From Lysobacter sp. ISL-50 (GTDB lineage Bacteria; Pseudomonadota; Gammaproteobacteria; Xanthomonadales; Xanthomonadaceae), in NCBI RefSeq assembly GCF_018612875.1, contig NZ_JAGGRI010000003.1, positions 81,658-145,657 of the forward strand: DNA of 64,000 nt, given 5' to 3'. Below the pieces are notes generated by a model, which saw only the letters and a list, made by a program, of their open reading frames with translations, had not been told where the DNA came from and searched no databases. A program made the translations under genes and the position numbers. Shown here in pieces: positions 8,084 to 56,752 of the stretch; position 1 is the first letter of the stretch; each line of letters begins with the position of its first letter.

Positions 8084-8527
8084 ATGCTGTCTAAGACCGC
8101 CTCGCCCTGGATTGTGTCCTGGGATTTGCTGGAGAAGATCGCTAGTCGATTGGCGGATATCCAGGAGAGCGAGGGCTATCGCACCAATATTGGCGCGACG
8201 ATTACTTTGGAACCGTCGCAGCATTCCGACGAACTGGTTACCGGGCTGACACTGGTATCGCTCGGTATCCGGCGCGACGAAGCCAAGCCCCAAGGACGCC
8301 ACCGAATCATGCAGGCGGTGGCCGAGGCGACCGTGCCATCGTCGCTAGAAGAGGCACACGTCCAAGCGCATGCCATCGCCGCCGACATCGAGGACGCGCT
8401 CGATGAGTGGATTCCGCTGCCGAATGCGTTGCCGGTGCAGGTCGAGGACATCGTGTTTCTCGACCGACCGGAGGGTTTACCGGTCGTGGCCGTGCAAGTG
8501 GCCCTGACGATCCGTTATCGCCGCTGA
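8084..8527 (+). CDS. phage tail completion / terminator-like protein, 5' end altered by IS
   Basis: A 147-residue protein with a helical N-terminal half and a C-terminal end VVAVQVALTIRYRR typical of small tail terminator or completion proteins. It lies where lambda has the genes between FII and the tail tube gene. The ATG at 8084 is at the very edge of the IS. Without the IS the frame would start at 6586 with the codons ATG GAT GAT ATG, so the insertion removed about three codons and supplied or preserved an ATG. Its ribosome-binding site is now IS-derived and may be weak. The product assignment is by position. Confidence 0.55.
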   Translation: MLSKTASPWIVSWDLLEKIASRLADIQESEGYRTNIGATITLEPSQHSDELVTGLTLVSLGIRRDEAKPQGRHRIMQAVAEATVPSSLEEAHVQAHAIAADIEDALDEWIPLPNALPVQVEDIVFLDRPEGLPVVAVQVALTIRYRR

Positions 8528-9075
8528 TGGAACTGTTCATCGATGCCAACGCTACGCTCGATGTAGCCAAACGCATCAGCGAGATCCCGGCCAAGGTCGC
8601 GGTCGCTCAGCGCCGCGCGCTGGGCACGTTGCGCCGCCGCTGGCCGGTCATCGCCCGCCGCGACATTCAGACCGAGTACGCCCTGTCGGCGCAGCGCATC
8701 CGCGCCGGCATCAGCGTGCGAACGACGCGCGAGGGCGTCGAGCTGGTCGGCGTCGCGCGCGGCGTGGGCCTGCGGAACTTCGCGTCCAAACGCAGCGCCG
8801 ATGATCGCGGTTTGAACTTCACCGCCCTCCGGGGCCGAAGGGGTTTCCGCCGTAGCGGTTTCCATCGCCGCCACGGCGGCGCCGACATCGCGTTCGTTCG
8901 GACCCCGATCTCCGGCGACAAGCGTGTGCCGCGCACGCCGATCATTCGCCTCTACGGGCCGTCGCTGGCGCAAATGCTGCGCAAGGGCGATCGCCCCGAC
9001 CGCATGGCCCAAGCCGGGCTCGATGTGATCACCGCCGATATCGACCGGCTATTGCTGCGCTCGCTGCGCCGCTGA
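8527..9075 (+). CDS. minor tail protein Z-like
   Basis: A 182-residue, very basic protein resembling prophage minor tail protein Z, which acts in tail completion before head joining. Matching features are the N-terminal helix followed by RRRWPVIARRDIQTEY, the SAQRIRAGISVRTT segment, and an Arg/Gly-rich centre (RGRRGFRRSGFHRRHGG). The start is the ATG overlapping the upstream TGA. It ends 55 bases before the tail tube gene, leaving room for a ribosome-binding site (taggagcaacg). Confidence 0.75.
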   Translation: MELFIDANATLDVAKRISEIPAKVAVAQRRALGTLRRRWPVIARRDIQTEYALSAQRIRAGISVRTTREGVELVGVARGVGLRNFASKRSADDRGLNFTALRGRRGFRRSGFHRRHGGADIAFVRTPISGDKRVPRTPIIRLYGPSLAQMLRKGDRPDRMAQAGLDVITADIDRLLLRSLRR

Positions 9076-34387: not shown

Positions 34388-35740
34388 TTAGACGGTGCGA
34401 GCCGATTGGGCTCGGGTCTGCTCTTGGCTTTGCTGATCTTGCGTCAGCGACTGCTGCTGATTGACGGCAGCCAGCTGCTGGAAGGATTTCTCGACGGGGA
34501 TCTGGGCCGCGACCTCGGTGTTGACCTGAGCGCGCTTGTGCGCAGGGTCAGTCAGTTCGCCCTGCACGGCGAAAAGGTCCGTGCCGGTCGGCGTGCTGCG
34601 GCCTGCGACAACATGGTTGATCTGCTCCAGCCCCGCTTGCCGCGAGTTCACCAATAGCGCCGCTGTCGTGCGCTCGGCGGTCTCGTTCAGCGGAAGCCCC
34701 TGTTGGGCGAATTCACGCTCAATACCGGCATGGAGCGTGCTATGCATCGAGTGGTTCGGATGGTCTGGATTGCGCGGATCGATTGCGCGCTGCTCCGACG
34801 CAGGCAGCGCGCCGTGCGCGTCCTTGAAAGGGCTCTCTGCCGGTCTATCGGGAAGGAGCCTGCCGATCTCGTCAGCGATGCCCTGAGCACCGCGGATGCT
34901 TGAAGCGCCGACAGAGACCCCGCCGCGGATATTCTCGATGTCCCCGCGGTACTTATCGAACATCGGCCTGTGCTGATCGGCGAGTTCGCGTGCGTGCGGC
35001 TGCGACAGTATCGATCGGTCTCGCTGGCCATTTCCATCAACATCGAGAAAGTGATGCATCCGGTGGGAGTCCCCGCCTGTGACCGCCGCCTTGACCGGAT
35101 TTCTGATGTCCCACTGACTGCCGTTGTCCTCGTAACCCGCCGCCCTCATTACATTCAGTTCGACGGGCTCCGCGTACATGTGCACTTTTCCAAAGTGCTT
35201 GCTCGCTGCGCTGACTACGTCACCGGCCATCACGTGGTTGACGATCTGATTACCGCCTTCGGGGATGTTAAGGCCCAAGCTAACGGCGCCGTAGGGGTTA
35301 AAGGCCTCCCCGTTGAGGTTGAGCTTCGCTGCGGTGATCTGCGTAAGGCAGCCGCCGAGGGAGTGCCCGGTTACGGTGACCTGCGGTTCCCGGCCGCTTA
35401 ACTTTGCTTGGTCTTGGGCCAGCTCGATGGCTTCTTTCGTAAACTCAAGCGCATCGGCTGCTTGAGCGTTGGCACGCTTTGCGACCATTCCGCCATCGGC
35501 GAACACGCCGTCCTTAAAAGGCTGGGTATCGAACTCGCTACCGCGATGGGCAACAATGATTTCTTTGGAATCGACGCGCTGGTAAATCGTGCCTTGGTAG
35601 CCCGATGGTTTATCAACATGGGCAAGGATGTTGTACTCGACCCCCCCAAGGACAACAGTTTGCTCTTTGGGGTTGCTGAGGTCGGGACTACGATATGCAT
35701 CTTGCGCGAGGTTTGCATATTGCTGCGTCGTAGTGCTCAT
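34388..35740 (-). CDS. X-Tfe type IV secretion effector: class 3 lipase-like with XVIPCD
   Basis: A 450-residue predicted antibacterial effector. The N-terminal half is a class 3-type lipase: YQRVDSKEIIVAHRGSEFDT and the nucleophile elbow VTVTGHSLGG near residue 128, with a probable acid and His in the following 120 residues. The C-terminal 130 residues fit the XVIPCD signal used by the Xanthomonadales VirB/VirD4 system. Landmarks are RNPDHPNHSMHSTL, ERTTAALLVNSRQAGLEQI and TDLFAVQGELTDPAHKRAQV, ending with a Gln-rich tail. It should be injected into rival bacteria and attack membrane lipids. Its start overlaps the stop of the lipoprotein gene. Confidence 0.88.
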   Translation of the reverse strand: MSTTTQQYANLAQDAYRSPDLSNPKEQTVVLGGVEYNILAHVDKPSGYQGTIYQRVDSKEIIVAHRGSEFDTQPFKDGVFADGGMVAKRANAQAADALEFTKEAIELAQDQAKLSGREPQVTVTGHSLGGCLTQITAAKLNLNGEAFNPYGAVSLGLNIPEGGNQIVNHVMAGDVVSAASKHFGKVHMYAEPVELNVMRAAGYEDNGSQWDIRNPVKAAVTGGDSHRMHHFLDVDGNGQRDRSILSQPHARELADQHRPMFDKYRGDIENIRGGVSVGASSIRGAQGIADEIGRLLPDRPAESPFKDAHGALPASEQRAIDPRNPDHPNHSMHSTLHAGIEREFAQQGLPLNETAERTTAALLVNSRQAGLEQINHVVAGRSTPTGTDLFAVQGELTDPAHKRAQVNTEVAAQIPVEKSFQQLAAVNQQQSLTQDQQSQEQTRAQSARTV

Positions 35741-37550: not shown

Positions 37551-38663
37551 TCAAGCGGGTCGGATCTTATTGGGGTTGAAACCTTCGCTGTCTTGAACCG
37601 TACCGTGATGCGCTCGCGGCGGGGGGGCGCTTCCGACACCGGGTCCTGGATAGTGCGAACTGCCCGCCGGCGGTGATGCTGAGGAGCCGCCACCGCTCCC
37701 GCCGATTGGACCAGCAATCGTCGAGTACGGATTGAAGTTCGCGAGGAGACCCCTGAACAACATCGCTGCCGCTGGCGGCGCGCCCATAATGAGAGTCGTG
37801 AGGACTAGTCCCAGGATTCCTTGCATCTGCACGACGCCATTAATACCTTCGGATGCGGTACCCATGCCGAGCAGTCGTGATAGTCCTTCGGCCGCCCAGA
37901 ACCCTCCAGCGAGCGCGAGCGTTATATCCATAGCAAGCGTAACTGCGACGCTTAGAAAGGCCATCGCCATCAACGATCCTAGAAGGGAGTTCAGCCAGCC
38001 TTTGAACAGTCCTTCCGTTTGCTTGAAAATAAGGCAAAGGACGAAGAAGGGGCCAACTCCGAGCAGCATCGCGATCACGAACTTGTTCAGGATCAGGAGG
38101 CACCCGCCGACTACTGCTGGGCCTCCCACGCCGAGTCCGGCAATCAGACTGGCTTGATCGCGCTTCTTGAGCGCAACTGGGTTATCGCCTACGTCGAGCA
38201 TGTCAATACTGCTGATTGCTAGCTGCATCAAGGCGAGGGCTTCGTCGATGTCATCGTAGACAGTGGTCTTGTCGTCGCCGGTGATCGCGTAGTTGATGAC
38301 CTGACTGACGCCATCCGTCAACGACTTATAGATTGACGCTTGAAAGTTGGCGGCGGCGCCGCAGATCATTACGATCAGAACAATCTTAGTAGCTTCAACT
38401 TTCAGAGCCGCCATCGAACCGTGCGACTGCCCGGTCACGCGCAGGAAGCCCTGGTAAAAAATCCACAGCGTCACCAGCGGGGTGACACCTACAGCGACCA
38501 ACGTTCCGACGCGCCGCAGTAGATTGCGCGAGTACTCGGTGATTTCGCCATCGAGAAAATCTTTGAACAGCGCGAAGAACCCGAGGCTGTCGATGCCATC
38601 GGGGATGCCAGCTCGCAACAGATGAAGGCTGCCCGTAAGACCGCCCGAGAACAAATCAAACAT
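37551..38663 (-). CDS. virB6: VirB6-like type IV secretion channel protein
   Basis: A 370-residue polytopic membrane protein of the VirB6/TrbL type. Helices include RVGTLVAVGVTPLVTLWIFY, TKIVLIVMICGAAANFQA, VVGGCLLILNKFVIAMLLG, FFVLCLIFKQTEGLFKGWLN and LVLTTLIMGAPPAAAMLF. The large periplasmic loop before the third helix is usual in VirB6. The C-terminus is a Gly/Pro/Ser-rich tail (GGSGGGSSASPPAGSSHYPG). VirB6 forms part of the inner membrane channel for effectors. The VirB5-like gene upstream supports the call, but no other vir genes are in the window. Confidence 0.85.
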   Translation of the reverse strand: MFDLFSGGLTGSLHLLRAGIPDGIDSLGFFALFKDFLDGEITEYSRNLLRRVGTLVAVGVTPLVTLWIFYQGFLRVTGQSHGSMAALKVEATKIVLIVMICGAAANFQASIYKSLTDGVSQVINYAITGDDKTTVYDDIDEALALMQLAISSIDMLDVGDNPVALKKRDQASLIAGLGVGGPAVVGGCLLILNKFVIAMLLGVGPFFVLCLIFKQTEGLFKGWLNSLLGSLMAMAFLSVAVTLAMDITLALAGGFWAAEGLSRLLGMGTASEGINGVVQMQGILGLVLTTLIMGAPPAAAMLFRGLLANFNPYSTIAGPIGGSGGGSSASPPAGSSHYPGPGVGSAPPPRAHHGTVQDSEGFNPNKIRPA

Positions 38664-44391: not shown

Positions 44392-44757
44392 TCAGTCGTC
44401 CTTCTTATGTGCGCAATGTGCGGCGACACTCAAGACCATTTCCTGGATTGCAGTCACGAGCCTTGCAACGGCCGGTTCGCTGCCAGGTAGGCTGGCAACC
44501 AGTTCATCCAGCAAGCTCCCGGCACGCGTTGGCGGAGGATTTCCCGTGGTCGCTGGAATCTGCAAGTATGTGCATATTTTTTGCACATTTTCCGACACCG
44601 TGGCCATTTGGCCGCGCTCCAGTTTTGAGAGCTGCCCGGCATCCACGCCGGTATGCGTCGCCACGAATACTAACGTATAGCCCTTATTTTTCCGGGCCGA
44701 GCGCATCCGCGCTCCAAGCCGTGTCGCATCGTCAGGAGTCTTGAACCGTTCGGCCAT
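44392..44757 (-). CDS. XRE-family transcriptional regulator
   Basis: A 121-residue protein with an XRE domain at residues about 12-70 (RLGARMRSARKNKGYTLVFV, then THTGVDAGQLSKLERGQM) and a C-terminal helical part. The start at 44757 (MAERFKTPDD) is chosen over an upstream in-frame Met because it begins the domain and lies beside the shared operator region. It is divergent from a DUF4031 gene with only 41 bases between them, so it probably controls both. Confidence 0.75.
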   Translation of the reverse strand: MAERFKTPDDATRLGARMRSARKNKGYTLVFVATHTGVDAGQLSKLERGQMATVSENVQKICTYLQIPATTGNPPPTRAGSLLDELVASLPGSEPAVARLVTAIQEMVLSVAAHCAHKKDD

Positions 44758-44798
44758 ATGTGCTAAATATTTGCATATTATTTGCAAGCTGGCTACAT
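44758..44798. promoter_or_regulatory. shared operator/promoter of the XRE and DUF4031 genes
   Basis: This 41-base AT-rich divergent gap carries ATTTGC at 44769-44774 and ATTTGC again at 44780-44785, a direct repeat of half-sites 11 bases apart, about one helical turn. Tandem half-sites at such spacing fit a dimeric XRE repressor. A third related segment (TGCATATTTTTTGCACAT) lies inside the XRE gene near 44572-44589. Confidence 0.45.
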
Positions 44799-45068
44799 AT
44801 GGCGGTCTACGTTGATTCAGAAGCGATTCGCTGGAGGGGCCGCGAGTGGTGCCACATGGTCGCCGACACTCTGGAGGAGCTCCATGACTTCGCAGCCCGC
44901 CTCGGTTTGCAGCGACGTTGGTTTCAAGATCGCGGTCGCTACCCCCACTACGATGTCACTGTAGCCGTACGCTCTAGGGCGTTGCGAATAGGGGCGATTG
45001 ACGCCGACCGCGCGACTTTGATTGCCTGCTGTAAGCGGGTTCGCTTCGAGCTGAGCCGTCGCACTTAG
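44799..45068 (+). CDS. DUF4031 protein
   Basis: An 89-residue protein with the DUF4031 pattern: MAVYVDSEAIRWRGREWCHM, then ADTLEELHDFAARLGLQRRW and YPHYDVTVAVR. The family is small, cytosolic and of unknown function, and is often found in phages or mobile islands. The ATG at 44799 begins the conserved core; an earlier in-frame codon would read through the operator. It may form an operon with the MazG-like gene 40 bases downstream. Confidence 0.75.
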   Translation: MAVYVDSEAIRWRGREWCHMVADTLEELHDFAARLGLQRRWFQDRGRYPHYDVTVAVRSRALRIGAIDADRATLIACCKRVRFELSRRT

Positions 45069-45108: not shown

Positions 45109-46311
45109 ATGACACCTGCACTGCCCCAGCCTCAGCCGCTCTCGCTGCCCGAGTACCTGTTGAAGGCACGGCGAACCAACCGATTCGAGAACAATCCGGA
45201 GGAGTTCGACAACCTTCGCTTCGGCTACTTTGGAGAGATCGGCGGACTGCTGGCGGCGGTCAAGAAATCTGGTCGGGACCAACTCACGGAACCGCAAAGC
45301 GCCCTGGCGGCCGAGGAGCTCGGCGACGCCCTGTGGTACCTGGTCAGTACCGCCCATCTGCTTGGCGTTTCCGCTGACGACCTGGGTGAACACTGCCTCC
45401 GGCGGCTGCGGCAACGCTTCGGTGATAATGACCGTCCCGCGGTGTTGCCAGTCACCTTCCGGCAGATCGACGCCCTGCTCGACACTTATAGGGAAGGCTG
45501 GGGCCTAGATCGGATCCAGCAGTTGGGAACCCTAGCCCATTCGGCCGGAAACATGGCCAGCATCACGATCACGAAATTCGAGGCAATGAGCCCTCCTGCG
45601 TTGCGCGAGCACTTTGGAATTCTGTTCGCGGAATGGGCTATTACGTGTGGGTGTTTCGATCTGCGCACAGAAGACATCGCGCGGAGCAACCTGGACAAGA
45701 TTTCCAGCCGTTGGCCGGGTGACGAAAAGGTGTATCCGGCCTTCTTTGATTCCGACAAGCGCTTCCCGGAGTACGAGCAGTTTCCCCGCACGTTCGACAT
45801 CGAGTTCATCGAACGCGACGGCTATGTCGTGCAGAGCCTCAAAGGCGTGTTCATCGGCGATCGGCTGACGGATAACAGCAATGAGGAGGACCACTACCGG
45901 TTCCACGATGTCTTCCACCTCGCGTACATTGCCTACCTTGGATGGTCGCCGGTCATCAGGGGCCTTCTGAAGCGTAAGCGGAAGTCAGATCCGCGCATTG
46001 ATGAGAACGAGGATGGCGCTCGGGCCATGATCATCGAAGAAGGCATTGCGACTTGGATCTTCAATCACGCCCGGCGGTTTGGCTTGTATGAGAACATCGA
46101 GGTTGGCAAGCTGGATTACAGTCTGCTCAAGCAGATCCAGAACATGATCGAAGGCTATGAGGTCGAAAGTTGCAAGCTCTGGCAATGGGAACTGGCGATC
46201 CTCAAGGGCTTCGAGGTGTTTCGTCTGCTGCGACAGCATCGTGGTGGAATAGTCACCATTGACATGAATCAGCATGCGCTGACTTTCCGCCCGCACCCGG
46301 CTCAACCATGA
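45109..46311 (+). CDS. MazG-like nucleotide pyrophosphohydrolase with extra C-terminal domain
   Basis: A 400-residue protein. Residues about 10-105 are a MazG-like NTP-PPase helical fold with the metal-binding pattern: FGYFGEIGGLLAAVKKSG (ExxG-like) and LAAEELGDALWYLVSTA (EEExxD-like, EELGD). These enzymes hydrolyse (d)NTPs to monophosphates. Residues about 250-400 form a conserved region with HYRFHDVFHLAYIAYLGWSP and MIIEEGIATWIFNHARR. That region has many acidic and His residues and could be a second metal site. The stop overlaps the UDG-like start, so the two act together. Confidence 0.8.
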   Translation: MTPALPQPQPLSLPEYLLKARRTNRFENNPEEFDNLRFGYFGEIGGLLAAVKKSGRDQLTEPQSALAAEELGDALWYLVSTAHLLGVSADDLGEHCLRRLRQRFGDNDRPAVLPVTFRQIDALLDTYREGWGLDRIQQLGTLAHSAGNMASITITKFEAMSPPALREHFGILFAEWAITCGCFDLRTEDIARSNLDKISSRWPGDEKVYPAFFDSDKRFPEYEQFPRTFDIEFIERDGYVVQSLKGVFIGDRLTDNSNEEDHYRFHDVFHLAYIAYLGWSPVIRGLLKRKRKSDPRIDENEDGARAMIIEEGIATWIFNHARRFGLYENIEVGKLDYSLLKQIQNMIEGYEVESCKLWQWELAILKGFEVFRLLRQHRGGIVTIDMNQHALTFRPHPAQP

Positions 46312-46979
46312 CTCCCGCTGCTTTTGTAAAGGCGCTGGCTGCATTCAGCCTGGACAACGTCTTCAATCCCTACGCGGACGTGTGCGCTGTGCACGATCGC
46401 GCCGATGCCGCCGAGTCGCGTCGACGTAACCTGCGCACATACTTGGCCGCGTCCGCCGACATCGGCGTGGACACGATCTGGATGGGCCGGGATCTGGGTT
46501 ATCGGGGTGGACGACGCACGGGGCTGGCGCTGACCGACGAGTACCACTTGCCGGAAATTGCGAAGCGGTATCCAGGGTGCCAGTCACGCCAGGCTACACG
46601 CGGACCCGCCGTTGCGGAGCGAACCGCCGCTGAGATCTGGGCGGTGCTTCGGGTGATCGACACGCCCCCGCTGCTGTGGAATGTCTTCCCTTTCCATCCG
46701 CATGAGCCTAACAACCCGTTCAGTAACCGACGTTTCACGGCGCGAGAACTCGACCAGGTTGACGAGCTTAACAACGCGCTCATTGCTTGGCTGAATATCC
46801 GTCAGATTGTTGCGATCGGACAGGATGCGGCGCAGTACGCGCGGCGGTTCGGCGTGAAGGTGATCACCATTAGGCATCCGAGCTATGGAGGCGTCAGAGA
46901 GTTCAGAGAAGGGATGCAGCAACTGTATAAGCTGCCCGACAGTGCCGTGAGACGGGCAACGCAGGCTACGCTCATCTAG
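46308..46979 (+). CDS. uracil-DNA glycosylase superfamily protein
   Basis: A 223-residue protein with a UDG-fold pattern: IWMGRDLGYRGGRRTGLALT near the N-terminus for the first loop, LWNVFPFHPHEPNNPFSNRR in the middle, and IRHPSYGG near residue 190 for the HPS loop that pinches DNA. The region before it, VAIGQDAAQYAR, matches the helix of such proteins. It may excise a damaged or modified base or bind a nucleotide. It overlaps the MazG-like gene by four bases and its stop overlaps that of the converging thymidylate-synthase-like gene. Confidence 0.7.
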   Translation: MTPAAFVKALAAFSLDNVFNPYADVCAVHDRADAAESRRRNLRTYLAASADIGVDTIWMGRDLGYRGGRRTGLALTDEYHLPEIAKRYPGCQSRQATRGPAVAERTAAEIWAVLRVIDTPPLLWNVFPFHPHEPNNPFSNRRFTARELDQVDELNNALIAWLNIRQIVAIGQDAAQYARRFGVKVITIRHPSYGGVREFREGMQQLYKLPDSAVRRATQATLI

Positions 46980-47785
46980 GCTGTTGTGAGCAGTACGCGC
47001 GTGAGGAGCGCATTGGTGGCTGCTACGCCACCGAATGCCTCCACGTCGAGATGCGCCAAGGTGCTGACGCAGGTCAGCACGCCCGGCGTATGTCCGGACT
47101 CGGTTGCCACGAACGACTGCAGTTGGCTCAAGCCGATCAGGTTCCCTACCGCACGACGTCCATAATGATGGGACCGATAGACGGCCGTGAGGTCAATCGC
47201 CTCGCGTGCGCGGTCGAGTTTGAAACTGAGATGGCTTAGACAAGGGATGTTAGTGGCGCGTCCGCCGTCGCTTGTAGGTCCGTAGATTGGCAGCTCTCCG
47301 CCGATCTCGTTGTCCAGCACATCGGCCACCTCATGCAGGCCCAGTTCGTAGGCGGCCTGATATTTGGTCCCCGCCCTGGTCCTTTGAAACTTGGTGACGA
47401 TGACCTCAAGCGGATTGATCGTCTCTCTGGTCCGCGGGTGGGTCCGCTCCATCATGCGCATCGCGTACGTCCCCCAAGTTCCCGGCTTCTTGCCTTTTTT
47501 CATGGCCGCGAAAAATTGTCCATAGAAGTCGGGGCGCCCGTGACGCAAATACATCCGTTGTGGAAAGATGGTCGCAGCAACGGTGTACACCCCGATTCCG
47601 TCATCCGTCTTGCGAAGCTCTGCGTCGACGGCATTGATGGCCGCGACGTCGTCTGCGGTGAGCGTCGACGGAGATGTGATCTCGAGAACGAAGTTCCGGT
47701 CGGTGCGCCCTGGCGCCGCGGCCAAACTGCCAACAGCGCTCAACCATGCGGGAACTATCCTCTCCGAACAAAACAGCTTAGCCAT
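46976..47785 (-). CDS. thymidylate synthase-like protein
   Basis: A 269-residue protein whose C-terminal half matches the thymidylate synthase core. The catalytic Cys would be Cys182 in NIPCLSHLSFKLD. The phosphate-binding Arg-Ser is at 204-205 (TAVYRSHHYGRR), and the conserved Asn is Asn215 in GNLIGLSQLQSFV. The N-terminal half has YAMRMMERTHPRT. The usual QRSxD box reads YRSHH, so folate or nucleotide use may differ. It is the last gene of a coupled operon and starts three bases after the papain-like gene. A base-modifying or dNMP-modifying role is inferred. Confidence 0.7.
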   Translation of the reverse strand: MAKLFCSERIVPAWLSAVGSLAAAPGRTDRNFVLEITSPSTLTADDVAAINAVDAELRKTDDGIGVYTVAATIFPQRMYLRHGRPDFYGQFFAAMKKGKKPGTWGTYAMRMMERTHPRTRETINPLEVIVTKFQRTRAGTKYQAAYELGLHEVADVLDNEIGGELPIYGPTSDGGRATNIPCLSHLSFKLDRAREAIDLTAVYRSHHYGRRAVGNLIGLSQLQSFVATESGHTPGVLTCVSTLAHLDVEAFGGVAATNALLTRVLLTTA

Positions 47786-47788
47786 GTG

Positions 47789-48421
47789 TCAGGCTCCAAA
47801 AGCGCAGAGTGCATGCTCGCGAACATACGTTACCGATATCCAGGCAACCCCATACTGACCCCAGCCGCGTCCCCAGCTGTTACGAATCAGAAAATGTGCT
47901 TCGCCGTCTTTCCAGCCGAGACCAACGATGGCGACCGCATGCAGGACCACTGGCATGAGGGCCGCGGCTTCGAACGTGACTACGCCATCGACAGGCATGT
48001 AGAAGCTTTCGGTGAGTCGTAGGCCGATCCCTACCGGCCGATGCTCACACAGCATCGCGCAGATGACTCCGGCATCCAAAGGCAGCATAGCGACGCCACC
48101 GCCATGCAGGTCAAAGGTGCTGGGCGGAGCAGGCACTGGCGCGACAGGCTCTACAGCTTGGTAGGGAAAATCCGATTCCACCGGCTGTCCATTGGACGTC
48201 GCGCGCAATGCGGCATCCAAGGGAACGCCGGTTCCAGGCAACCACGAGGGAACGAGGCAGGCGGCGCCCTGATAGGCGTACTCCGGACTGAGAGCTTCAA
48301 CGCCGGTTGCGGCGTCGAGATTCAATTCAGCCAAGGCGAACGCAATGCAGGTCGGCCGAAGCCCTTGATCGCGTGCGGGGAACCTGGCTTGCGCAAGAAT
48401 GACCTCTTCCTTGATCGTCAC
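47789..48421 (-). CDS. papain-like cysteine peptidase (C1A), cytoplasmic and without prodomain
   Basis: A 210-residue C1A peptidase core. The catalytic set is complete: Gln19 and Cys25 in RDQGLRPTCIAFAL, His161 in VVLHAVAIVGLGW, and Asn181 in LIRNSWGRGWGQYG. The first residues (MTIKEEVILAQARFP) replace the usual propeptide, and there is no signal peptide, so an active protease would form inside the cell. Control must come from elsewhere, most likely the chagasin-like domain of the next upstream gene, whose stop overlaps this start (ATGA). Confidence 0.85.
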   Translation of the reverse strand: MTIKEEVILAQARFPARDQGLRPTCIAFALAELNLDAATGVEALSPEYAYQGAACLVPSWLPGTGVPLDAALRATSNGQPVESDFPYQAVEPVAPVPAPPSTFDLHGGGVAMLPLDAGVICAMLCEHRPVGIGLRLTESFYMPVDGVVTFEAAALMPVVLHAVAIVGLGWKDGEAHFLIRNSWGRGWGQYGVAWISVTYVREHALCAFGA

Positions 48422-49425
48422 GCGGTCGGACTCTCCCGGAGCAGCTGCTGTTTGGCGATGCTTGTCAGCCCGGGGGCAATGTTCTCGAACGAGGTCCTGG
48501 CCTCAAAGGTGTTCGCCGGCGTTTCCTTCGCCCATGGTCGTACTTCTTCCATCGCAAGCACGGCGGGGCTGTCGTTGACTCCGGCCGTGTCATGCGCAAG
48601 CAGGAACTCAGCGGTGGTGGGGCCGCCAAACACGGAGTCGGTTGAGATCCCCTCTTTGCTTGACGCACGAGTCGGCCGGATCTGAAAACCTTCCGAAGCC
48701 AGTTCGTCCAGCGCCCAGAGGTAACCCGCACTCGCGTGGCTGCTAAAGCGCACGACTATCCGGTCCTCCGCGCGAGGTTCCAACACGCTGTCGCGATCGC
48801 GCTCATCCAGCAGCCAGACCTCCTTGCGCGCATCGAACGCCTGGCCGGCAAGCAGCTCTTCTTTGATGGCCAAAGGCTGGACGTTGATCAACCGCTTCAC
48901 CTCGGCAGGCGCCATCAGTTTGTGGCGGGCCAAAGACCACGCCGCCGCCGTATAGCTGATGCCAAGCCGGAGCGACAGCTGATAGAGGAGCCGCGGGTCC
49001 GCCAGCGATTGCATGGTCCAGCCCTTGCGGCGCATCACGTGCGCCAGCAATGCCCGAGGGACCATGAGCTGGTAGGCAAACCAGTCCGCTTCCAGCTCAT
49101 GGCGAGCCGCTTGAGGCCCATAGTCTAATGAATCGTCCGCAGTGGAGTCATGGCCCATAAAGTAGTGGCCCAACTCGTGGGCGCAGGTCATATGGATCAG
49201 TCCAGCGGATCGCTCGGAGTTGATCAGTATCCCGGACGCATCGTCCCGGATGAACGCACCTAGGAGCTTGTCCAGCGGCCTCAGTAGCACCGGCACGCGC
49301 TCTTTGCCCGCAATAAGGAAGGGGTCCACGCGCGTGTAGCCTTCTTGCTCGACGCGCCCCTTAGCCCCCGAGTCGCGATATACCTCGGACGCGCGACGTG
49401 CGGCAGCCATGATCAGAGGGAGCAT
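48418..49425 (-). CDS. ImmA/IrrE metallopeptidase fused to a chagasin-like (I42) inhibitor domain
   Basis: A 335-residue fusion. Residues 1-200 are an ImmA/IrrE-type metallopeptidase with CAHELGHYFMGH (zinc ligands His83, His87) and RHELEADWFAYQLMVP supplying the third ligand. Residues about 218-315 match chagasin-type cysteine-protease inhibitors by their three binding loops: HASAGYLW (NPTTGY-like), FGGPTTAEF (GGxx loop) and VRPWAK (RPW loop). ImmA/IrrE proteins usually cleave XRE repressors under stress, and chagasins block papain-type enzymes. The cognate XRE regulator is encoded immediately upstream and the papain-type enzyme immediately downstream. Confidence 0.8.
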   Translation of the reverse strand: MLPLIMAAARRASEVYRDSGAKGRVEQEGYTRVDPFLIAGKERVPVLLRPLDKLLGAFIRDDASGILINSERSAGLIHMTCAHELGHYFMGHDSTADDSLDYGPQAARHELEADWFAYQLMVPRALLAHVMRRKGWTMQSLADPRLLYQLSLRLGISYTAAAWSLARHKLMAPAEVKRLINVQPLAIKEELLAGQAFDARKEVWLLDERDRDSVLEPRAEDRIVVRFSSHASAGYLWALDELASEGFQIRPTRASSKEGISTDSVFGGPTTAEFLLAHDTAGVNDSPAVLAMEEVRPWAKETPANTFEARTSFENIAPGLTSIAKQQLLRESPTA

Positions 49426-49428
49426 TCC

Positions 49429-49791
49429 TTACTCCTTTCGCGTCACCTTGGGTGATTGCTTCAAAAACTCGGCGAACCGGGCCACTTCGTCTAGATCACG
49501 TTCCGATAAGCCTTTGATGGCGCGCGCCAGGAACGCTAGCTGTTCGGGTGCCTTCGGGGCCGGCTCCCTCCCCGTCAACAAAGATTCCATGGTCCGTCGA
49601 TAGAGGCGAGCCAAGATGTTGAGCTCGGTGGATTCGACCTTGCGGGCCCCCGACTCAATCTTCGTGACGGCAGGACGGGAAATTCCTAAAGCCCCAGCGA
49701 CGTCTTCCTGGGTCAGGCCGACGTATTCCCGCGCCAACCGCAGTCGTTCGGCCATCTCAGCGCGCTGATCGCCCTTCTCCGAACTAGTCAT
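49429..49791 (-). CDS. XRE-family regulator, likely substrate of the adjacent ImmA/IrrE peptidase
   Basis: A 120-residue protein with an XRE helix-turn-helix at residues about 13-68 (MAERLRLAREYVGLTQEDVA, then ISRPAVTKIESGARKV). A helical C-terminal tail follows (LAFLARAIKGLSERDLDEVA). It starts inside the upstream carrier-like gene (8-base overlap) and ends three bases before the metallopeptidase gene. XRE plus ImmA/IrrE pairs are known two-part switches in which the peptidase inactivates the repressor. It probably represses this operon. Confidence 0.85.
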   Translation of the reverse strand: MTSSEKGDQRAEMAERLRLAREYVGLTQEDVAGALGISRPAVTKIESGARKVESTELNILARLYRRTMESLLTGREPAPKAPEQLAFLARAIKGLSERDLDEVARFAEFLKQSPKVTRKE

Positions 49792-50068
49792 GGGGGTGCT
49801 CTGTAATGTAGTCGAGAACTTGGCAGGTCAGCAGCTCAACAAACTGCTCTTTCGACTCGTACCCGCCCCTGCGAATCACGACCTCTGCCGGAATGCTTCG
49901 ACCCAGCAGCGTGTCGAGCTGCAACAGCGCCTCCACCGCCGTAAGGGAGTCCAGCGGTGCACCCAGCAGGCCAGAGGTGTCCCGCGGGTCTTCACCGAGT
50001 TCAATCGCCATCTCCTCCCAGAACTGGCCCAGAACCGCCTCTATCTCCGCCTTCCTGTCGTTCATCAC
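49784..50068 (-). CDS. acyl/peptidyl carrier protein-like small protein
   Basis: A 94-residue helical protein resembling a carrier protein. The block GAPLDSLTAVEALLQLDTLL holds a DSL motif with Ser41 where phosphopantetheine would be attached. The following IPAEVVI and a final helix match the four-helix carrier fold. The N-terminal helix is acidic. It is the first gene of the five-gene operon. Alternatives are a carrier fold that is never loaded or an unrelated acidic protein. A 4'-phosphopantetheinyl transferase is not encoded nearby. Confidence 0.6.
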   Translation of the reverse strand: MMNDRKAEIEAVLGQFWEEMAIELGEDPRDTSGLLGAPLDSLTAVEALLQLDTLLGRSIPAEVVIRRGGYESKEQFVELLTCQVLDYITEHPHD

Positions 50069-50086: not shown

Positions 50087-50106
50087 ACGTTATGTTCTAA
50101 AAACGT
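50087..50106. promoter_or_regulatory. inverted repeat upstream of the five-gene protease operon
   Basis: ACGTT at 50087-50091 and AACGT at 50102-50106 are an inverted pair with ten bases between, about 19-38 bases upstream of the first start of the - strand operon. With one more matched base on each side the arms read GcACGTT and AACGTaC. The AT-rich spacer could include a -10 region. This is a good operator candidate for the XRE repressor of the operon. Confidence 0.5.
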
Positions 50107-50681
50107 ACCACGTCGCGGAAGTGAAGGGAACCTGGACGGTTGAGTGTTCCGACAGACGGCCCTGGCTGAGGGCGAGCTGGGACTAGTCGTGGTCAGAAAG
50201 TGCGAGCGGCCGAGGCGGATTCTGACCTCAGGCCGGTCGACGCCAACGCCGTTGTCTGGCGGCCTGGGGCCGACTGAGGCCGTCGGGGGCCGCTCGCGGC
50301 CGACACGTGCCGGGACACGGCGACGCAGGTCAACCTGCAAGCCGACCCCGGCCGTCCGACCGCAGGGACATGCAGGGCCGTACAGGGACACCAGGGGATC
50401 AAGAGAGTTAGCCCCCAGTTGCCGTGGGCGCGCCAGTTTCCAGCGGTGAACCCTCTCCGCTCTCCGCACGCCCCTCCGAAAGCCCCAGTCCTGGCGGCCT
50501 TCCGCGATGGGCGTTTGGTTTTGACCTTTGGGCCAAACCGCCGAAACGGTTCGTTTTCCCCTCTCTCCACCCCATTTTTCTCCGGTCGGTTGGTCCTGAG
50601 ACCAAACGCTCGTTTGCGCAAAGCGCCAAAAACAAGGTGGATTTCGCCGGCCCTATTTTCTACGTTGGATTCGGACTTAGG
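50107..50681. other. non-coding, GC-rich region with small hairpins
   Basis: No gene is supported in these 575 bases. Open frames exist but have biased, repetitive composition. Hairpins can be formed by CAAACG at 50603-50608 with CGTTTG at 50611-50616, and by AACCG with CGGTT near 50537-50553. The segment between 50340 and 50400 is rich in caggGaca-type short repeats. The region lies between the stop of the GacA-like gene and the promoter of the five-gene operon. It may hold a terminator, a structured RNA or an old integration scar; no choice can be made. Confidence 0.4.
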
Positions 50682-51338: not shown

Positions 51339-51889
51339 CTTCTTCCTCGGGAATCATCCGCCGAGGACAGACTTAGCCAATACAAGCCGGCCGCTATCAA
51401 CATAATCATTTGTAATTTGCGATTCGCCGACGCCAATGTCGGCTAATGGCATTTATCGATAGACAAACGCCTAGGCTGGTGGATCGAAATACCAAGTAAA
51501 AGTCAGATTTTGCTTACTCTCAGCCCTTGCCTTAGCTGCTAGCGTGGAGCCCCACCGACGCACCCAAAGTACACTTCGGGCGAGCAAGGAGGGCTATGTC
51601 ACATTCACGAAATTTAGCTACAGACCGAACAAGAAGCACCGAGGCTTTCGCAGTCTCTTCGAACGAGATAACCTTCGGCGAAACTGGCCATCAGGATGGC
51701 CTGGACGCTCAAGCACTCTTCTGGCGCCCCGCACTTAGACATGGACAGTTGTATGCCCACACTGAAGCTACTGGCCTCTCAGCCGGCACGAGCGGTCGTC
51801 GATTTTCTCCGCAATCCTCACCTCCCCAAGGCGTGGGCATCCGCCCGCGCTGTTCCGCTGTGCCAACAGGAGTAGCACCAAGGAATATC
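51339..51889. promoter_or_regulatory. intergenic region before the RHS gene, with an alternative in-frame start
   Basis: The 551 bases between the response regulator and the RHS start hold no independent gene. The AT-rich stretch 51390-51535 is the likely promoter area for both divergent genes. An in-frame ATG at 51596, preceded by a strong AAGGAGGG site, would add 98 residues to the RHS protein. That extension is Arg/Ser/Pro-rich and would bury the signal peptide, so the later start is preferred. The strong site could instead serve a leader peptide. Confidence 0.4.
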
Positions 51890-54800
51890 ATGAAAAAGAA
51901 TCGAATATTCGCAGTAGCGCTCAGCGTGCTGGCCGCTTGGTCGGGCCTAGCGATCGCACAAGAACCCATTACGCCATGGAATTGGAAGCTCACCATTTAC
52001 GATGCCTCCGATCACGAGTTAGAGAACAAGGAGTTCACCAGCCGAAGCGCGGCAGAGCAGTACCTCTGGGCGTCTTCTCCACTGAACGCGACGCTCAAGG
52101 AAGTCAAGCTCATTAAAGCGGGCGGATTGGGCGCCGAGTATCGGTATACCGGAACTCGCTCATCGACAACTCCAGGTCCGTATCAGTACAACACATATGT
52201 TGAGGAGGGCCTGAAATGGTTTTCCAGTGAATCGGAAGCAGTTACCGCGCGTAAGCAACGCCTCACCTACGCCTGGGGTACAAGCCGGAAAGCTTGCGCC
52301 CCAATCTTTGAGGACGAAGAGTGGAGCAACGAACCTAATCCAACTGACTCCCAGAGGAAATATACTAGGGTATATGTATTCAATGAGGACGACCCTACTT
52401 GCAGACCCTACTGGGAATTTCCTTACTTCAATACTGAACTGGTTAACAAAAAACGCATTACCTTTCGCGACCACGTCAAAAATCAGGACGGCAATTTCTT
52501 TCGTGATCCGCAGCCATTCACGGGTTTGGAGGAGAGCGCACAAATCTTGCACACTGGACCCGCTCGCGACCCGTACGGAAGCAATTACACCCCGGAGCAA
52601 TGGACCGTATTCAGTCGGCGAACGGCCAAGCTAGTCGGGCAACCCAATCACTGCTCGCCGATCAAGGGCAATCCCTGCGATGTCGCTAGAGGTTCAAAGT
52701 ATGAAATCGTAACCGACGCGGGCGGGTACGGCCCGCTGGATTTGATTCGCCAGTACGACTCCACCGATGCCGGTGGTTCGTTTGGCCGAGGGTGGCATGG
52801 CCCGTTTGACTACAGTTTGATGGTCTCAAACGACGGTAACCAATCCATCGTTCTCACGACCCCAAGTGGCAAACAAGTCGATCTGACGCGATCGTCTGGT
52901 TTGATCGACGACGCCCAACGGTATCGCAGCTCGGACAATCGCTCGGCTACCGCGATGAAGTACTACAAAGGGGCTGGCGTGTATGCGGTCCGGGTCGAGT
53001 TTCCGGACATGTCGATCGAATTCCGCTACCCCGGCCCAGGTTACAGCGAGAGACCTAGCAGCATCACCTACAACGGCAACCAAGAAGTTCGGCTTAACTA
53101 CGACACGCTCGGCCGCATCGAGCGCGCGGAGTACCTCGGCCGTTCGGTCAAGTATGTTTACGAGCACACCGATACCGAGCGCCTGCATAAGGTTTCAGCC
53201 GCGCTAATGCCGGATGGGCGGCTGATCACCTACGAGTACACGGCCGATGGCAACCTCGACCGCGTGGCGGACGACAGCGGTGAGTTGTTCAAGTACGGCT
53301 ACAAGGCCGGCACGTCGCTGATCACATCGATTCTGGAAAGTGGCGAGCATCCTCGTGGATACCAGTACGACGATTTACGCCGCCTGATCGGATCGACCAA
53401 TGGACCGGCCCAGTACGGCTACGCCTATCAGCCCACCCAGACTACCGTGACGTTTCCGAGCGGCCGGGTCGAGGTCACAGACTTTGAGCCCGAGCTCTCG
53501 CGACGACCGGTGCGCGAAGAGACCGTGGGCGGCTTGGTCACCTCGACAGCCTATACTTATAGCGGCCCCTACGACATCGTTACCGAGACCGACAACGCCG
53601 GTTTGACCACGATCCGGAAATACAACAGCAACTCGGAAACCGTTCAGACCCTGCTGAACAATGCGGTGTTGCGGACTATCCTCACGACATATGAACCCGG
53701 AACGTCGCGGCCGACGCGGATTCAGGCCAACGATGGGACGAGCAATCTCACCGCACAGACCGACTACACGTACAACACTCGTCGGCAGTTGACCTCGGTC
53801 GTTCGCAAAGATGCGAAGACGGCCGAACAGCGGACGACGACCCTGACCTACTGCGAGGACGCGGACCTGACGGCTCCGGCTTCCACCTGCGCCACGCTGG
53901 GGGCCTTGAAGTCCGTAGACGGACCGCGCACCGACGTCGCCGATACGACCGGTTATGACTACTTCGTCAGTGACGCGCCCGGCTGTGCAGTACCCGGTGG
54001 CAATTGCTCCTACCGGAAAGGTGATCTGTGGAAAATCAATTTCCCGATGGGTCAGACCCAGGAGTACTTGGCCTACGATGGCGGTGGCCGAACCTTGGGT
54101 TCTAAAGACTCCAACGGGGTCGTCACGAACTCGGAGTACGACCCGCGGGGTCGTTTGGCCGCGCAAAAGATTCGCGGTGCGAACGATTCGGTCAAGACCG
54201 ATGACCGGATCACGCGATTCGAATACACCCCTAGCGGCTCGGTGAAACAGATCACCCTGCCGGATGGGACGTACACCCGGTTCACCTACGACGCCGCGCT
54301 GCGGCTGACAGACATCACCGACAACCTGGGTGACGTCATCCACTACACCCTGGACAACGCCGGCAATCGCAAGCAGGAAGACGTCAAGGCCGGGGGCACT
54401 ACGGTCAGGCGCACCCTGTCGCGCGCCTTCAATGCGTTGGGTCAGTTGGAGGTACTGAAGGACGCGTCCCAGAATGCAACCAGCTTCCGCTACGACCTGG
54501 GCGGCAACCCCGACCGGACGACCGACGCCTTGGGGCGCATGACCGATCAGACCTACGATGGGCTAGGTCGTCTCAAGAAGACCCTTCAGGACGTGGGTGG
54601 ACTGGCCGTCGAGACAAAGCTCGAATATGACCCGTTCGATCGCCTCGCTGGGGTGGTCGATCCTAAAGGATTGTCAACGGCCTACGTCTACAACGGCTTC
54701 GGAGATCAGACCAAGCTGACCAGTCCGGATACGGGCGTCACCGATTACACCTATAACGCCGCCGGTCTGCTGGCGACGAAGAAGGATGCTAACGATACCG

Positions 54801-56752
54801 CGGCGCACACCTATACCTACGATGCGCTCGGGCGCCCTAAGACGGTCTCCTATGGTTCGGGCAGCGCCGATGTCGAGTATGTGTACGACACCGTCAACCC
54901 GGCTTGCACGGCAGGCGAAACGTTCGCCTCCGGTCGCGTGACCGCGATGCGGACGGACGGCACGGAGTTGTTGTACTGCTACGATCGCTTCGGCCAAATA
55001 GTCCGCAAGACCCAGACGCTAGCAGGCAAGAGTTTCACCCTTCGCCACGCGTACACCAGCACGGGGCAGCTCAAAAACTTGACCTACCCGGATGGAACCG
55101 TCGTGGACTATGTTCGCGACGCCAGGGCGCGCATCAAGGAGATCGGCGTTAAGCCCAACGGCAGCGTGCGTTCCGTGTTGCTCACCAGCGCTTCATACGA
55201 GCCGTTCGGCCCCGTTAATGGCTGGACTTACGGCAACGGCCGCACCCTAAGTCGGACCTATGACCTGGATTACCGTGCCAAGACCGTGCTCGACAACGCC
55301 AGCGGCGGTTTATCGCTGGGCTACGGCTACAACGCGGTCGGCGACTTGACCGAATTGAAAGACGGCCAACAAAGCGCGTTCCAGGCCAAGTATGACTACG
55401 ACACCCTTGGGCGGTTAAAGGTCACCCGCGATGGCACGACCGACACGGCATTGGAAACCTACGGCTACGATGGGACCGGCAACCGTCTCAGCGTTCTGCA
55501 GAGTGCGGTGACGACGGCGTACACCTATCCGGACACCCAGCATCGCCTTACCCGCGTCGGCACCGTCAATCGCACGTACAACGCGGTCGGCAACACGACC
55601 AGCATTGGCAGCACGGCCAAGGAGTTCGCCTACAACCCCGATGATCGGCTGAGTCAGGTCAAGCTCAATGGCGTAATCAAGGCGGGCTACCGCTACAACG
55701 CCATAGGCGAACGCGTGGCCATCACCAAGCCGGACGGCACGATCGACACGTACACGCTGTACGACGAGGCCGGGAATTGGATCGGTGACTACACGACGGC
55801 CGGAATCGCGAAGCAACAGGCGGTTTGGTTAGGCGGCGCACCCGTCGGCGTGTTGGTCGGAAGCGGCACCACTCAGTCGGCGAAATACGTGGAAACCGAT
55901 CATCTCGGCACACCGCGTGCGGTCATCGACCCCATTCGCAATGTCGCGATCTGGACCTGGAGTGCGAAGGGTGAGGCGTTCGGCAAGGATGTTCCCAACC
56001 AGGATCCGGACCTGGATGGCACCGCGTTCGTGTTCAACTTGCGGTTTCCGGGACAGAGGTTCGACGCCGGCAGCGGATTTGTTTACAACTACTATCGCGA
56101 TTACGACCCAGCCGTAGGCCGGTACCTGCAAAGCGACCCGATTGGCCTGAACGGTGGGGCTAGCACTTACGCCTATGCATTCAATAATTCGAATAGTTTC
56201 AAGGATCCATTTGGTCTTCAGCCGCCCGTAATTGACAGACCGGCTCCCGGCACCAGCAGAATCTTCACCCGCAATGAGTTTACAGAGCGCTACGGCCCCT
56301 TCAGTTCAGCCGTTAATCGCCAGTTGGATCGCGGCTGTGTCGGCGTTGCTTCAATCTACCAGGGCATGGGATACAACATGCCCGAGAACGCGCCCGGGGC
56401 ACAGTGCTTCAAAACGCAAGACGAGGCAGAACGCAAGGCTCGCGAGTGCAAGAATAATGTTGTATGGATCAAGCAAGGCGAGTGGCGGTTTGCTGACAAA
56501 TCGAACATCAAGCCCAATTCGATCAAGGGAGTCTCAAATAATGATTCGAAGAATCCTGCCGAGGCTTTCAACTACGTTACTTGGCTACTCGATGAAGAAG
56601 CATACCTAATCATGAACTATCGGGTCGAAGATGTCCCCGCTAACGGGCCTCAGATGATCGAAATTAAGTCATCACAAAATACGCAGATCGCTCCGACCGA
56701 CGAATATCCTGCGCAAATTTTCTGCACTACCTGCCCAGCACGAACAAGGTGA
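51890..56752 (+). CDS. secreted RHS-repeat protein with variable C-terminal domain
   Basis: A 1620-residue protein. It has a signal peptide (MKKNRIFAVALSVLAAW, cut after GLAIA), an N-terminal region to about residue 270, then dozens of YD/RHS repeats (such as TYDALGRPKTV and FEYTPSGSVKQI). These form the shell that encloses a toxin. The RHS core near residue 1420 (RYLQSDPIGLNGG, ending DPFGL) marks the usual cleavage point. The last 177 residues are a separate domain (RGCVGVASIYQGMG, then RECKNNVVWIKQGEWRF) with several Cys and no recognised family. A toxin role is inferred. The following small gene may be its immunity protein. Confidence 0.9.
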   Translation: MKKNRIFAVALSVLAAWSGLAIAQEPITPWNWKLTIYDASDHELENKEFTSRSAAEQYLWASSPLNATLKEVKLIKAGGLGAEYRYTGTRSSTTPGPYQYNTYVEEGLKWFSSESEAVTARKQRLTYAWGTSRKACAPIFEDEEWSNEPNPTDSQRKYTRVYVFNEDDPTCRPYWEFPYFNTELVNKKRITFRDHVKNQDGNFFRDPQPFTGLEESAQILHTGPARDPYGSNYTPEQWTVFSRRTAKLVGQPNHCSPIKGNPCDVARGSKYEIVTDAGGYGPLDLIRQYDSTDAGGSFGRGWHGPFDYSLMVSNDGNQSIVLTTPSGKQVDLTRSSGLIDDAQRYRSSDNRSATAMKYYKGAGVYAVRVEFPDMSIEFRYPGPGYSERPSSITYNGNQEVRLNYDTLGRIERAEYLGRSVKYVYEHTDTERLHKVSAALMPDGRLITYEYTADGNLDRVADDSGELFKYGYKAGTSLITSILESGEHPRGYQYDDLRRLIGSTNGPAQYGYAYQPTQTTVTFPSGRVEVTDFEPELSRRPVREETVGGLVTSTAYTYSGPYDIVTETDNAGLTTIRKYNSNSETVQTLLNNAVLRTILTTYEPGTSRPTRIQANDGTSNLTAQTDYTYNTRRQLTSVVRKDAKTAEQRTTTLTYCEDADLTAPASTCATLGALKSVDGPRTDVADTTGYDYFVSDAPGCAVPGGNCSYRKGDLWKINFPMGQTQEYLAYDGGGRTLGSKDSNGVVTNSEYDPRGRLAAQKIRGANDSVKTDDRITRFEYTPSGSVKQITLPDGTYTRFTYDAALRLTDITDNLGDVIHYTLDNAGNRKQEDVKAGGTTVRRTLSRAFNALGQLEVLKDASQNATSFRYDLGGNPDRTTDALGRMTDQTYDGLGRLKKTLQDVGGLAVETKLEYDPFDRLAGVVDPKGLSTAYVYNGFGDQTKLTSPDTGVTDYTYNAAGLLATKKDANDTAAHTYTYDALGRPKTVSYGSGSADVEYVYDTVNPACTAGETFASGRVTAMRTDGTELLYCYDRFGQIVRKTQTLAGKSFTLRHAYTSTGQLKNLTYPDGTVVDYVRDARARIKEIGVKPNGSVRSVLLTSASYEPFGPVNGWTYGNGRTLSRTYDLDYRAKTVLDNASGGLSLGYGYNAVGDLTELKDGQQSAFQAKYDYDTLGRLKVTRDGTTDTALETYGYDGTGNRLSVLQSAVTTAYTYPDTQHRLTRVGTVNRTYNAVGNTTSIGSTAKEFAYNPDDRLSQVKLNGVIKAGYRYNAIGERVAITKPDGTIDTYTLYDEAGNWIGDYTTAGIAKQQAVWLGGAPVGVLVGSGTTQSAKYVETDHLGTPRAVIDPIRNVAIWTWSAKGEAFGKDVPNQDPDLDGTAFVFNLRFPGQRFDAGSGFVYNYYRDYDPAVGRYLQSDPIGLNGGASTYAYAFNNSNSFKDPFGLQPPVIDRPAPGTSRIFTRNEFTERYGPFSSAVNRQLDRGCVGVASIYQGMGYNMPENAPGAQCFKTQDEAERKARECKNNVVWIKQGEWRFADKSNIKPNSIKGVSNNDSKNPAEAFNYVTWLLDEEAYLIMNYRVEDVPANGPQMIEIKSSQNTQIAPTDEYPAQIFCTTCPARTR

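Follow-up and report, generated by a model that had tools for sequence, protein, structure and literature searches.

Gene organization of the locus

A 64,000-nt window of the Lysobacter sp. ISL-50 genome (assembly GCF_018612875.1, contig NZ_JAGGRI010000003.1; the window is the whole stretch of DNA that was analyzed, and all positions are its own) contains a minus-strand operon that encodes a papain-like cysteine peptidase of family C1 next to an M78 metallopeptidase fused to a chagasin-fold inhibitor domain of family I42. The operon belongs to a real, widely conserved system that is undescribed in the literature searched and is not a member of a known defense system. Its first gene (49784-50068) encodes an acyl carrier protein (ACP)-like carrier, assigned by matching a family profile to structures in the PDB and bearing the D-S phosphopantetheine motif at D40 and S41. 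This gene overlaps by 8 nt that of a CapH-like XRE repressor (49429-49791; Pfam HTH_31, 1.6e-13; PADLOC capH, 1.1e-10), which is followed after 3 nt by the fusion gene (48418-49425). Residues 1-186 of the fusion form the M78 (ImmA/IrrE/CapP-like) metallopeptidase domain (48868-49425; PF06114, 4.4e-13; PADLOC capP, 4e-16) and residues 199-314 the I42 domain (48484-48831). The C1 gene (47789-48421; PF00112, 3.4e-10), which lacks a propeptide, overlaps the fusion gene by 4 nt (GTGA), and 3 nt beyond it lies the gene for a divergent enzyme of the thymidylate synthase (TS) fold (46976-47785), whose AlphaFold2 model aligns with the TS superfamily at VIA-align Z scores of 14-17.

The original prediction, made from the letters of the window, had named these five minus-strand genes with their overlaps and 3-nt gaps, and the open reading frame coordinates agree with it. 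The tight operon is real, but the actual set is larger (about eight genes) and centered on nucleotides, and both a convergent operon and a promoter palindrome had been missed. The convergent operon, on the plus strand, opens with a small DUF4031 protein (44799-45068; PF13223, 5.6e-27) and continues with a MazG plus MazG_C protein (45109-46311; PF18722, 1.8e-77) and a protein resembling the uracil-DNA glycosylase (UDG) superfamily (46308-46979; Pfam UDG, 0.024; profile to TM0511 UDG, 0.28). The end of the TS-like gene overlaps that of the UDG-like gene by 4 nt, so the two operons stand tail to tail. The palindrome, GTACGTTTTTAGAAC, lies at 50094-50108 on the minus strand, upstream of the ACP-like gene.

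The claim of an ImmA/IrrE peptidase paired with an XRE regulator is upheld in the form of a CapH/CapP-type pair, both by the PADLOC matches and by the structural likeness to CapP given below, and in 76 related loci the XRE and M78 matches lie -7 to 75 nt apart. Upstream of the ACP-like gene, in 75 roughly de-duplicated regions, perfect 7-bp inverted-repeat stems occur in 35, where simple shuffling predicts 9.9, and 15 contain ATGTC-N9-GACAT, compared with 0 in shuffles. In all 10 beta/gamma-type loci this region contains a site that departs from GTACGNTTTTNGTAC at no more than three positions, a pattern picked after some of the 10 had been inspected; the fraction of shuffles with such a site ranged from 0 to 0.05, L021 being the weakest case (5%). 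Positions 50094-50108 are the sole match in the window to a pattern slightly looser than GTACGNTTTTNGTAC, with 0.17 expected. We regard the palindrome as a candidate XRE operator, at the place where one would be expected. The fusion, used as query, also found a CapH/CapP-like pair beside nucleotidyltransferase and patatin genes in a CBASS-like locus (L205:4599-5804).

The M78-I42 fusion and its C1 neighbor

As a single sequence, the I42 domain scores below the Pfam threshold (PF09394, 0.0047; 17.6 bits, where the cut-off is 27.2). Searched against the PDB, the family profile of the same region matches amoebiasin-2 (1.9e-13) and chagasin (3.7e-7), and that of the M78 region matches IrrE/PprI (6.8e-10) and CapP (1.8e-8). 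The AlphaFold2 model of the fusion (pLDDT 92.6, pTM 0.91) places residues 6-184 on CapP (VIA-align Z 17.8, root-mean-square deviation [rmsd] 2.6, 163 residues aligned) and on PprI bound to single-stranded DNA (ssDNA) (Z 13.9, rmsd 2.9, 153 aligned; Z range for PprI, 12.6-13.9). Residues 198-314 align with EhICP2 (Z 12.6, rmsd 2.6, 103 aligned) and chagasin (Z 11.2, rmsd 2.5, 104 aligned), and the I42 fold that had been read into the C-terminal part of the fusion is thus confirmed by structure matching. The M78 active site (HExxH...E) is intact, with H83, E84, H87, and E110 kept in 92 of 92 distinct sequences. Among 83 distinct I42 sequences, G234 and W237 are kept in 83, Y235 in 79, and G267 in 82; in the last loop, R296 is kept in 72 (Q in 10), P297 in 75, and W298 in 77 (F in 4). 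We take these motifs, GYxW, G, and RPW, to be the three conserved loops expected of chagasin-type inhibitors, and W298 presumably corresponds, by motif, to W93 of chagasin. The W93A substitution lowers the affinity of chagasin for cathepsin L 100-fold, according to the consulted part of PMC2607524. Loop 257-260 of the I42 model is of low confidence, which would leave room for I42 to be a docking or activating domain that recruits C1 to the M78 sensor and does not inhibit it. The retention of G-Y-x-W, G267, and R-P-W speaks against such a role, as does the affinity lost by chagasin W93A at the residue that we equate with W298, and we consider it very improbable. The predicted role of the I42 domain as a leash on the cytoplasmic C1 peptidase is well supported by its fold, the conservation of its loops, and its co-occurrence with C1.

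The C1 peptidase retains a complete catalytic set, with Q19 and C25 in 88 of 90 distinct sequences (gaps in the other 2) and H161 and N181 in all 90. Start positions were analyzed in 83 of 96 loci, near-copies included, taking the start nearest the upstream stop; the other 13 gave no motif start. In 82 of the 83, the catalytic Cys is residue 23-27, a spacing that we assume to be that of mature papain (papain numbering). Because the start lies only 22-26 residues ahead of the Cys, there is no room for a propeptide, and the description of a prodomain-less, catalytically complete C1A peptidase holds. The C1 start falls -4 to +6 nt from the stop of the fusion in 82 of the 83 loci, with a 4-nt overlap in 38, so that in those loci the gene encoding the inhibitor comes immediately before the one for the protease.

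The spread of the system was judged on loci obtained by scanning 84,980 species genomes with the C1 profile and keeping the best 80 of at least 345 relatives. These 80 loci include near-copies (e.g., L033-L040; 43 loci with long flanks are non-redundant) and contain C1 by construction. By family hidden Markov models (HMMs), ACP, XRE, M78, I42, C1, and TS occur all together in 73 of the 80, and M78, I42, and C1 in 76. The exceptions to the six modules are L051, without TS; L060, at a contig edge; the actinobacterial L086 and L094, with TS elsewhere in the locus and no ACP match; L090, with C1 only; and the Bacteroidota loci L096 and L097, with a different C1 and a separate I42-like gene. These last two are a simpler protease-inhibitor pair outside the system (L096:339-857 and 836-1942; L097:7512-8318 and 8425-8739). 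A tree of 72 TS-like proteins (of 96 rows, after removal of near-copies, among them the window's own row) spans Pseudomonadota, Myxococcota, Acidobacteriota, Planctomycetota, and Actinomycetota, together with plasmids of cyanobacteria and of the archaeon Haloarcula. The co-occurrence that the original prediction had proposed to look for in other genomes is therefore found, in several phyla. Low single-sequence scores for three domains could have been those of a chance run of unrelated genes, to which we now assign a negligible probability: synteny across distant phyla counts against it, and the 73 loci with six modules rule it out.

Because the C1-seeded set contains C1 by construction, the pairing of C1 with I42 was tested in loci found through TS-like or M78. 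Of 29 such loci scanned with HMMs, 21 (12 on plasmids, 9 in genomes) contain C1 together with I42, and 8 (6 on plasmids, 2 in genomes) contain neither; none has one without the other. Four of the nine genome loci with C1, all TS-seeded, overlap the C1-seeded set (L218/L059, L219/L028, L220/L071, L221/L066), and two, L223 and L224, come from one genome. The 29 leave out L207 (a plasmid record with a TS fragment only and no M78 or C1), the CBASS-like L205, and other unrelated M78 matches, and L246, which is known by annotation only, stands outside the eight C1-less loci. In C1-less Streptomyces, M78 is kept, and what remains of the C terminus is degenerate and lacks the GY-W and RPW loops; in C1-less cyanobacteria and Rhizobium rosettiformans, M78 is also kept and the C terminus is another sequence without I42 loops. 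Neither the C1-less cyanobacterial loci nor those of R. rosettiformans were matched by the ACP profile, although one such gene there is annotated as acyl carrier protein. On the tree, C1 loss needs two changes; the starred branches force only one, a number seen in only 2% of the bootstrap trees.

All 15 plasmid records with the system's C1 also appear in the M78-I42 match list, the fusion match being shorter in CP034356 and CP140872 and ending ahead of the last loop. The pairing of C1 with the fusion thus stands in 29 of 29 TS- or M78-seeded loci. The broader expectation, that C1 is never stably found without the fusion, agrees with the plasmid records and with the 76 genome loci (the other four being the contig-edge L060 and the non-system L090, L096, and L097), and it does not extend to more distant C1 genes in viral contigs, where 78 of 81 loci (L099 plus the best 80 of 331 more distant C1 relatives) have C1 alone. 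The TS-like gene is split in two frames, with C1 and I42 intact, in two Rhizobium ruizarguesonis plasmids (L208:6962-7721, L209:6965-7799) and in one of the two copies (L223 and L224) that genome G005 carries in opposite orientation about 44 kb apart. In the complete genome of L092, the M78, I42, C1, UDG-like, and MazG matches are each split in two frames, through sequencing error or decay.

Nucleotide enzymes, carrier protein, and mobility

As single sequences, neither the TS-like nor the ACP-like protein has a Pfam match at E 1. The TS-like family profile matches Lactobacillus casei thymidylate synthase in the PDB at 0.0014, and the AlphaFold2 model (pLDDT 90.4, pTM 0.90) aligns with phage dCMP hydroxylase (Z 17.3, rmsd 3.4, 203 aligned), the CMP hydroxymethylase MilA (Z 17.1, rmsd 3.0, 201 aligned), and ThyA (Z 15.2, rmsd 3.0, 196 aligned). 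Among 93 distinct sequences, C182 is kept in 92 (1 gap), N215 in 91 (2 gaps), and R204 in 85; two ThyA residues, the His that follows the Cys and the Asp within RSxD, are replaced in the alignment, and their presumed roles in ThyA's reaction bear on folate-dependent dUMP methylation. The ACP-like family profile matches acyl carrier proteins in the PDB at 3e-6, and its D-S motif retains the Ser (S41) in 81 of 81 distinct sequences and the Asp in 79. Genes for AcpS or other phosphopantetheinyl transferases (PPTases) lie nearby in 17 of the 80 C1-seeded loci and in the plasmid loci L003, L004, L006, L209, and L210, which supports a working carrier protein. A strict link between PPTase and loci of the HMUDK type was rejected; the UDG-type plasmid loci L003, L004, and L210 carry AcpS.

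The 80 C1-seeded loci divide into 52 with the UDG-like protein, 18 with HMUDK_hel (the helical domain of 5-hmdU DNA kinase), none with both, and 10 with neither, some of these 10 being contig edges or loci without the system. A need for both was rejected on this count, and the fact that the two never occur together suggests that they are interchangeable parts. Homologues of the UDG-like protein are annotated as uracil-DNA glycosylase in plasmid records. Near the system, a dCTP deaminase sequence family occurs in 13 loci (Pfam DCD matched 5 of 131 flank genes), and Pfam searches of flank genes also found second thymidylate synthase genes. A link of this arm, comprising the TS fold, MazG_C, UDG-like or HMUDK_hel, dCTP deaminase, and the second TS, to deoxypyrimidine nucleotides is supported by the predicted families. 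In six loci, five of them HMUDK-type, there is also a family of about 200 residues (L027:9439-10011 and others; the L027 member has no Pfam match) that is perhaps another NTP pyrophosphatase. Upstream of MazG, in the place of DUF4031, 18 UDG-type loci have a protein of about 74 residues (median; e.g., L005:8593-8790). A second XRE regulator (44392-44787, minus strand; HTH_19, 2.4e-7) is divergent from DUF4031 in the window, and genes that resemble it by eye, from a sequence family present in 6 loci, stand next to DUF4031 in L019-L021.

The clustering of MazG_C, HMUDK_hel, the TS fold, UDG-like, dCTP deaminase, a second thymidylate synthase, and PPTase would suit a cassette for hypermodification of nucleotides or DNA, in which C1 would not be an effector and would serve, under regulation, to process or turn over one of the cassette's own proteins, such as the TS-fold enzyme or the carrier. 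Some lineages lack C1, as such a cassette would allow. A dedicated inhibitor carried on a damage-type sensor peptidase, together with a repressor, would however suit a dangerous protease better, and we think this account unlikely.

The presence of the system is patchy. It was found in 3 of 149 relatives, in 5 of 292 genomes of one order, and in 1 of 149 in a family sample; in a genus sample, 7 of 20 genomes match the C1 profile, 3 of them strongly. With the TS profile, 23 of 398 genomes match and 4 do so strongly (E < 1e-26), the other 19 having another TS-like family; the weak matches in these 19 are to a TS-like part within frames of 493-786 residues (L183-L202). Operon DNA had no match in E. 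coli at distant-blastn sensitivity. Of 20 plasmid records with a TS-like gene, 11 are conjugative (16 were examined as loci, and H7-H10 were judged from protein match lists alone), and the flanks of the system hold recombinase, integrase, type IV secretion system (T4SS), and transposase genes. The patchiness, the conjugative plasmids, these flank genes, and the inhibitor-then-protease gene order are all as one would expect of a toxin-antitoxin-like module for maintenance of a plasmid or an integrative and conjugative element, with C1 as toxin, I42 as antitoxin, XRE as autorepressor, and the nucleotide genes serving the element's replication or DNA protection. At least eight genes with conserved nucleotide enzymes and an intact metallopeptidase exceed what addiction needs, however, and C1-less versions persist with the remaining genes; we give this module a low probability.

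Phage-borne carriage as the main habitat was rejected, the system being almost absent from the phage and viral-contig collections: a search of 50,697 phage records for the TS-like protein (E 0.01) gave no match, and in viral contigs the protein was found at one locus (L099). Three further features of the window itself lie outside the system. A large RHS/YD-repeat-like protein, recognized by eye, adjoins it at 51596-56752; a lipase-like protein with an X-Tfes XVIPCD domain (34391-35740; 3.2e-24) is a probable X-T4SS antibacterial effector; and a TrbL/VirB6 gene (37554-38663) stands near the latter.

A proposed switch and its relation to known systems

The consulted parts of two papers provide the basis for proposing a mechanism: CapP, once activated by ssDNA, cuts CapH and thereby derepresses immune operons (PMC13373217), and PprI is likewise activated by ssDNA (PMC10904395). 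We speculate that XRE represses its own operon at the promoter palindrome, a site proposed from its conservation, and that the fusion, made just before C1 from the abutting genes, would block the C1 active site with its chagasin-type loops. M78 would be activated by a trigger, which, to judge from CapP and PprI, is probably ssDNA arising through infection or damage to DNA, and the XRE repressor would by homology be cleaved. By analogy with these proteins, DNA damage is probably the trigger. Binding of ssDNA by PprI depends on a third, GAF-like domain; in the fusion, I42 occupies the corresponding position after M78, which leads us to propose that binding of one trigger could both activate M78 and loosen the grip of I42, freeing C1. 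Free C1 would then cleave cytoplasmic targets, with dormancy or death as the most likely outcome. The TS-fold enzyme, MazG_C, UDG-like or HMUDK_hel, and often dCTP deaminase may destroy or make an unusual deoxypyrimidine base, and the phosphopantetheine carrier perhaps holds the group to be transferred.

Taken as a whole, we judge it somewhat more probable than otherwise that these genes form a mobile system for conflict or stress response, regulated in the CapH/CapP manner, whose effector is a protease on a leash built into the system. A more specific form is tentative, and we hold it to be possible but the less probable outcome: one protein would be sensor, transcription switch, and protease leash, and ssDNA or an unusual nucleotide bound between M78 and I42 would destroy the repressor and free a papain-family executioner, giving a two-stage switch to death or dormancy in which the carrier and the TS-fold enzyme make or read a new pyrimidine signal. 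Whether the system acts against phage is about an even chance. In the consulted part of PMC13092281, the domains named for validated defense systems include TS and 5-hydroxymethyluracil kinase, and those for predicted ones MazG, MazG-C, and UDG; some copies of our system adjoin Shedu, caspase-like, or AbiEii genes. PADLOC, at E values up to 0.1, assigned the TS-like, C1, ACP-like, UDG-like, and MazG_C proteins to 0 families, and by that measure no known immune operon is adjacent.

Several points count against, or do not strengthen, the case for a leashed protease effector in a conflict or stress-response system. At 1e-10, PADLOC matched 79 families in the flanks (131 of 174 genes) compared with 24 in a control (133 of 158 genes), and these counts speak neither for nor against defense, since 20 of the 25 families displayed for the flanks are single-member PtuA/PtuB (Septu) models. 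For the flanks, 22 loci were drawn at random from the 43 (L051 gave no genes, leaving 21), and the control comprised 20 ten-kilobase stretches from eight genomes that carry the system, six of them on the system's own contigs. The TS tree holds few independent C1-loss events, which limits what the correlation between C1 and I42 can say, and the UDG-like protein is the weakest of the domain assignments. Self-cleavage of the fusion had originally been suggested as one option; release of C1 by cutting of a floppy interdomain linker is disfavored because the interdomain stretch (about residues 193-202) is modeled at pLDDT 94-98.

Comparison with known systems shows where this one departs from them. 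It shares with CapH and CapP an XRE and M78 pair near the operon start, the CapP fold, and the PADLOC capH and capP matches, but in contrast to those of CBASS and other immune operons it has a chagasin-fold domain after M78 and an operon encoding C1, TS-like, and ACP-like proteins. With PprI/IrrE-DdrO of Deinococcus it shares the M78 peptidase and, by homology, perhaps the ssDNA-type switch; it differs in that I42 replaces the GAF-like domain and the repressor gene is adjacent, and we know of no protease partner for PprI/IrrE-DdrO. Like chagasin/ICP inhibitors (MEROPS I42) with their C1 peptidases, it has the fold, the loops, and a C1 gene as neighbor, but whereas known chagasin/ICP inhibitors are, to our knowledge, stand-alone proteins, this one is fused to a sensor-type peptidase. 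The nucleotide-modification defense loci of the DefensePredictor paper (PMC13092281) also have MazG_C, UDG-like, HMUDK_hel, and TS domains. They differ in that the main text of that paper, so far as consulted, contains neither "acyl carrier" nor "cysteine protease" and contains "peptidase" once (M15 family), although overlap with its Fig. 6F systems is possible. In the titles and opening parts of abstracts searched, there was no description of the gene set or of an M78-I42 fusion; an earlier in silico mention is possible, for instance in the 2015 nucleotide-system paper cited by PMC13092281. In a survey of the papain family (PMC10380794), the word chagasin is absent from the main text as consulted.

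If our interpretation is correct, this would be the first prokaryotic operon, within the literature searched, in which a metallopeptidase of the damage-sensor type carries the inhibitor of a cysteine protease encoded alongside it, and one molecule would thereby control both the expression and the activity of the protease. It would provide a natural partner for a bacterial chagasin-fold domain, and it would connect sensing of the CapP type with a carrier protein and a set of genes for nucleotide modification.

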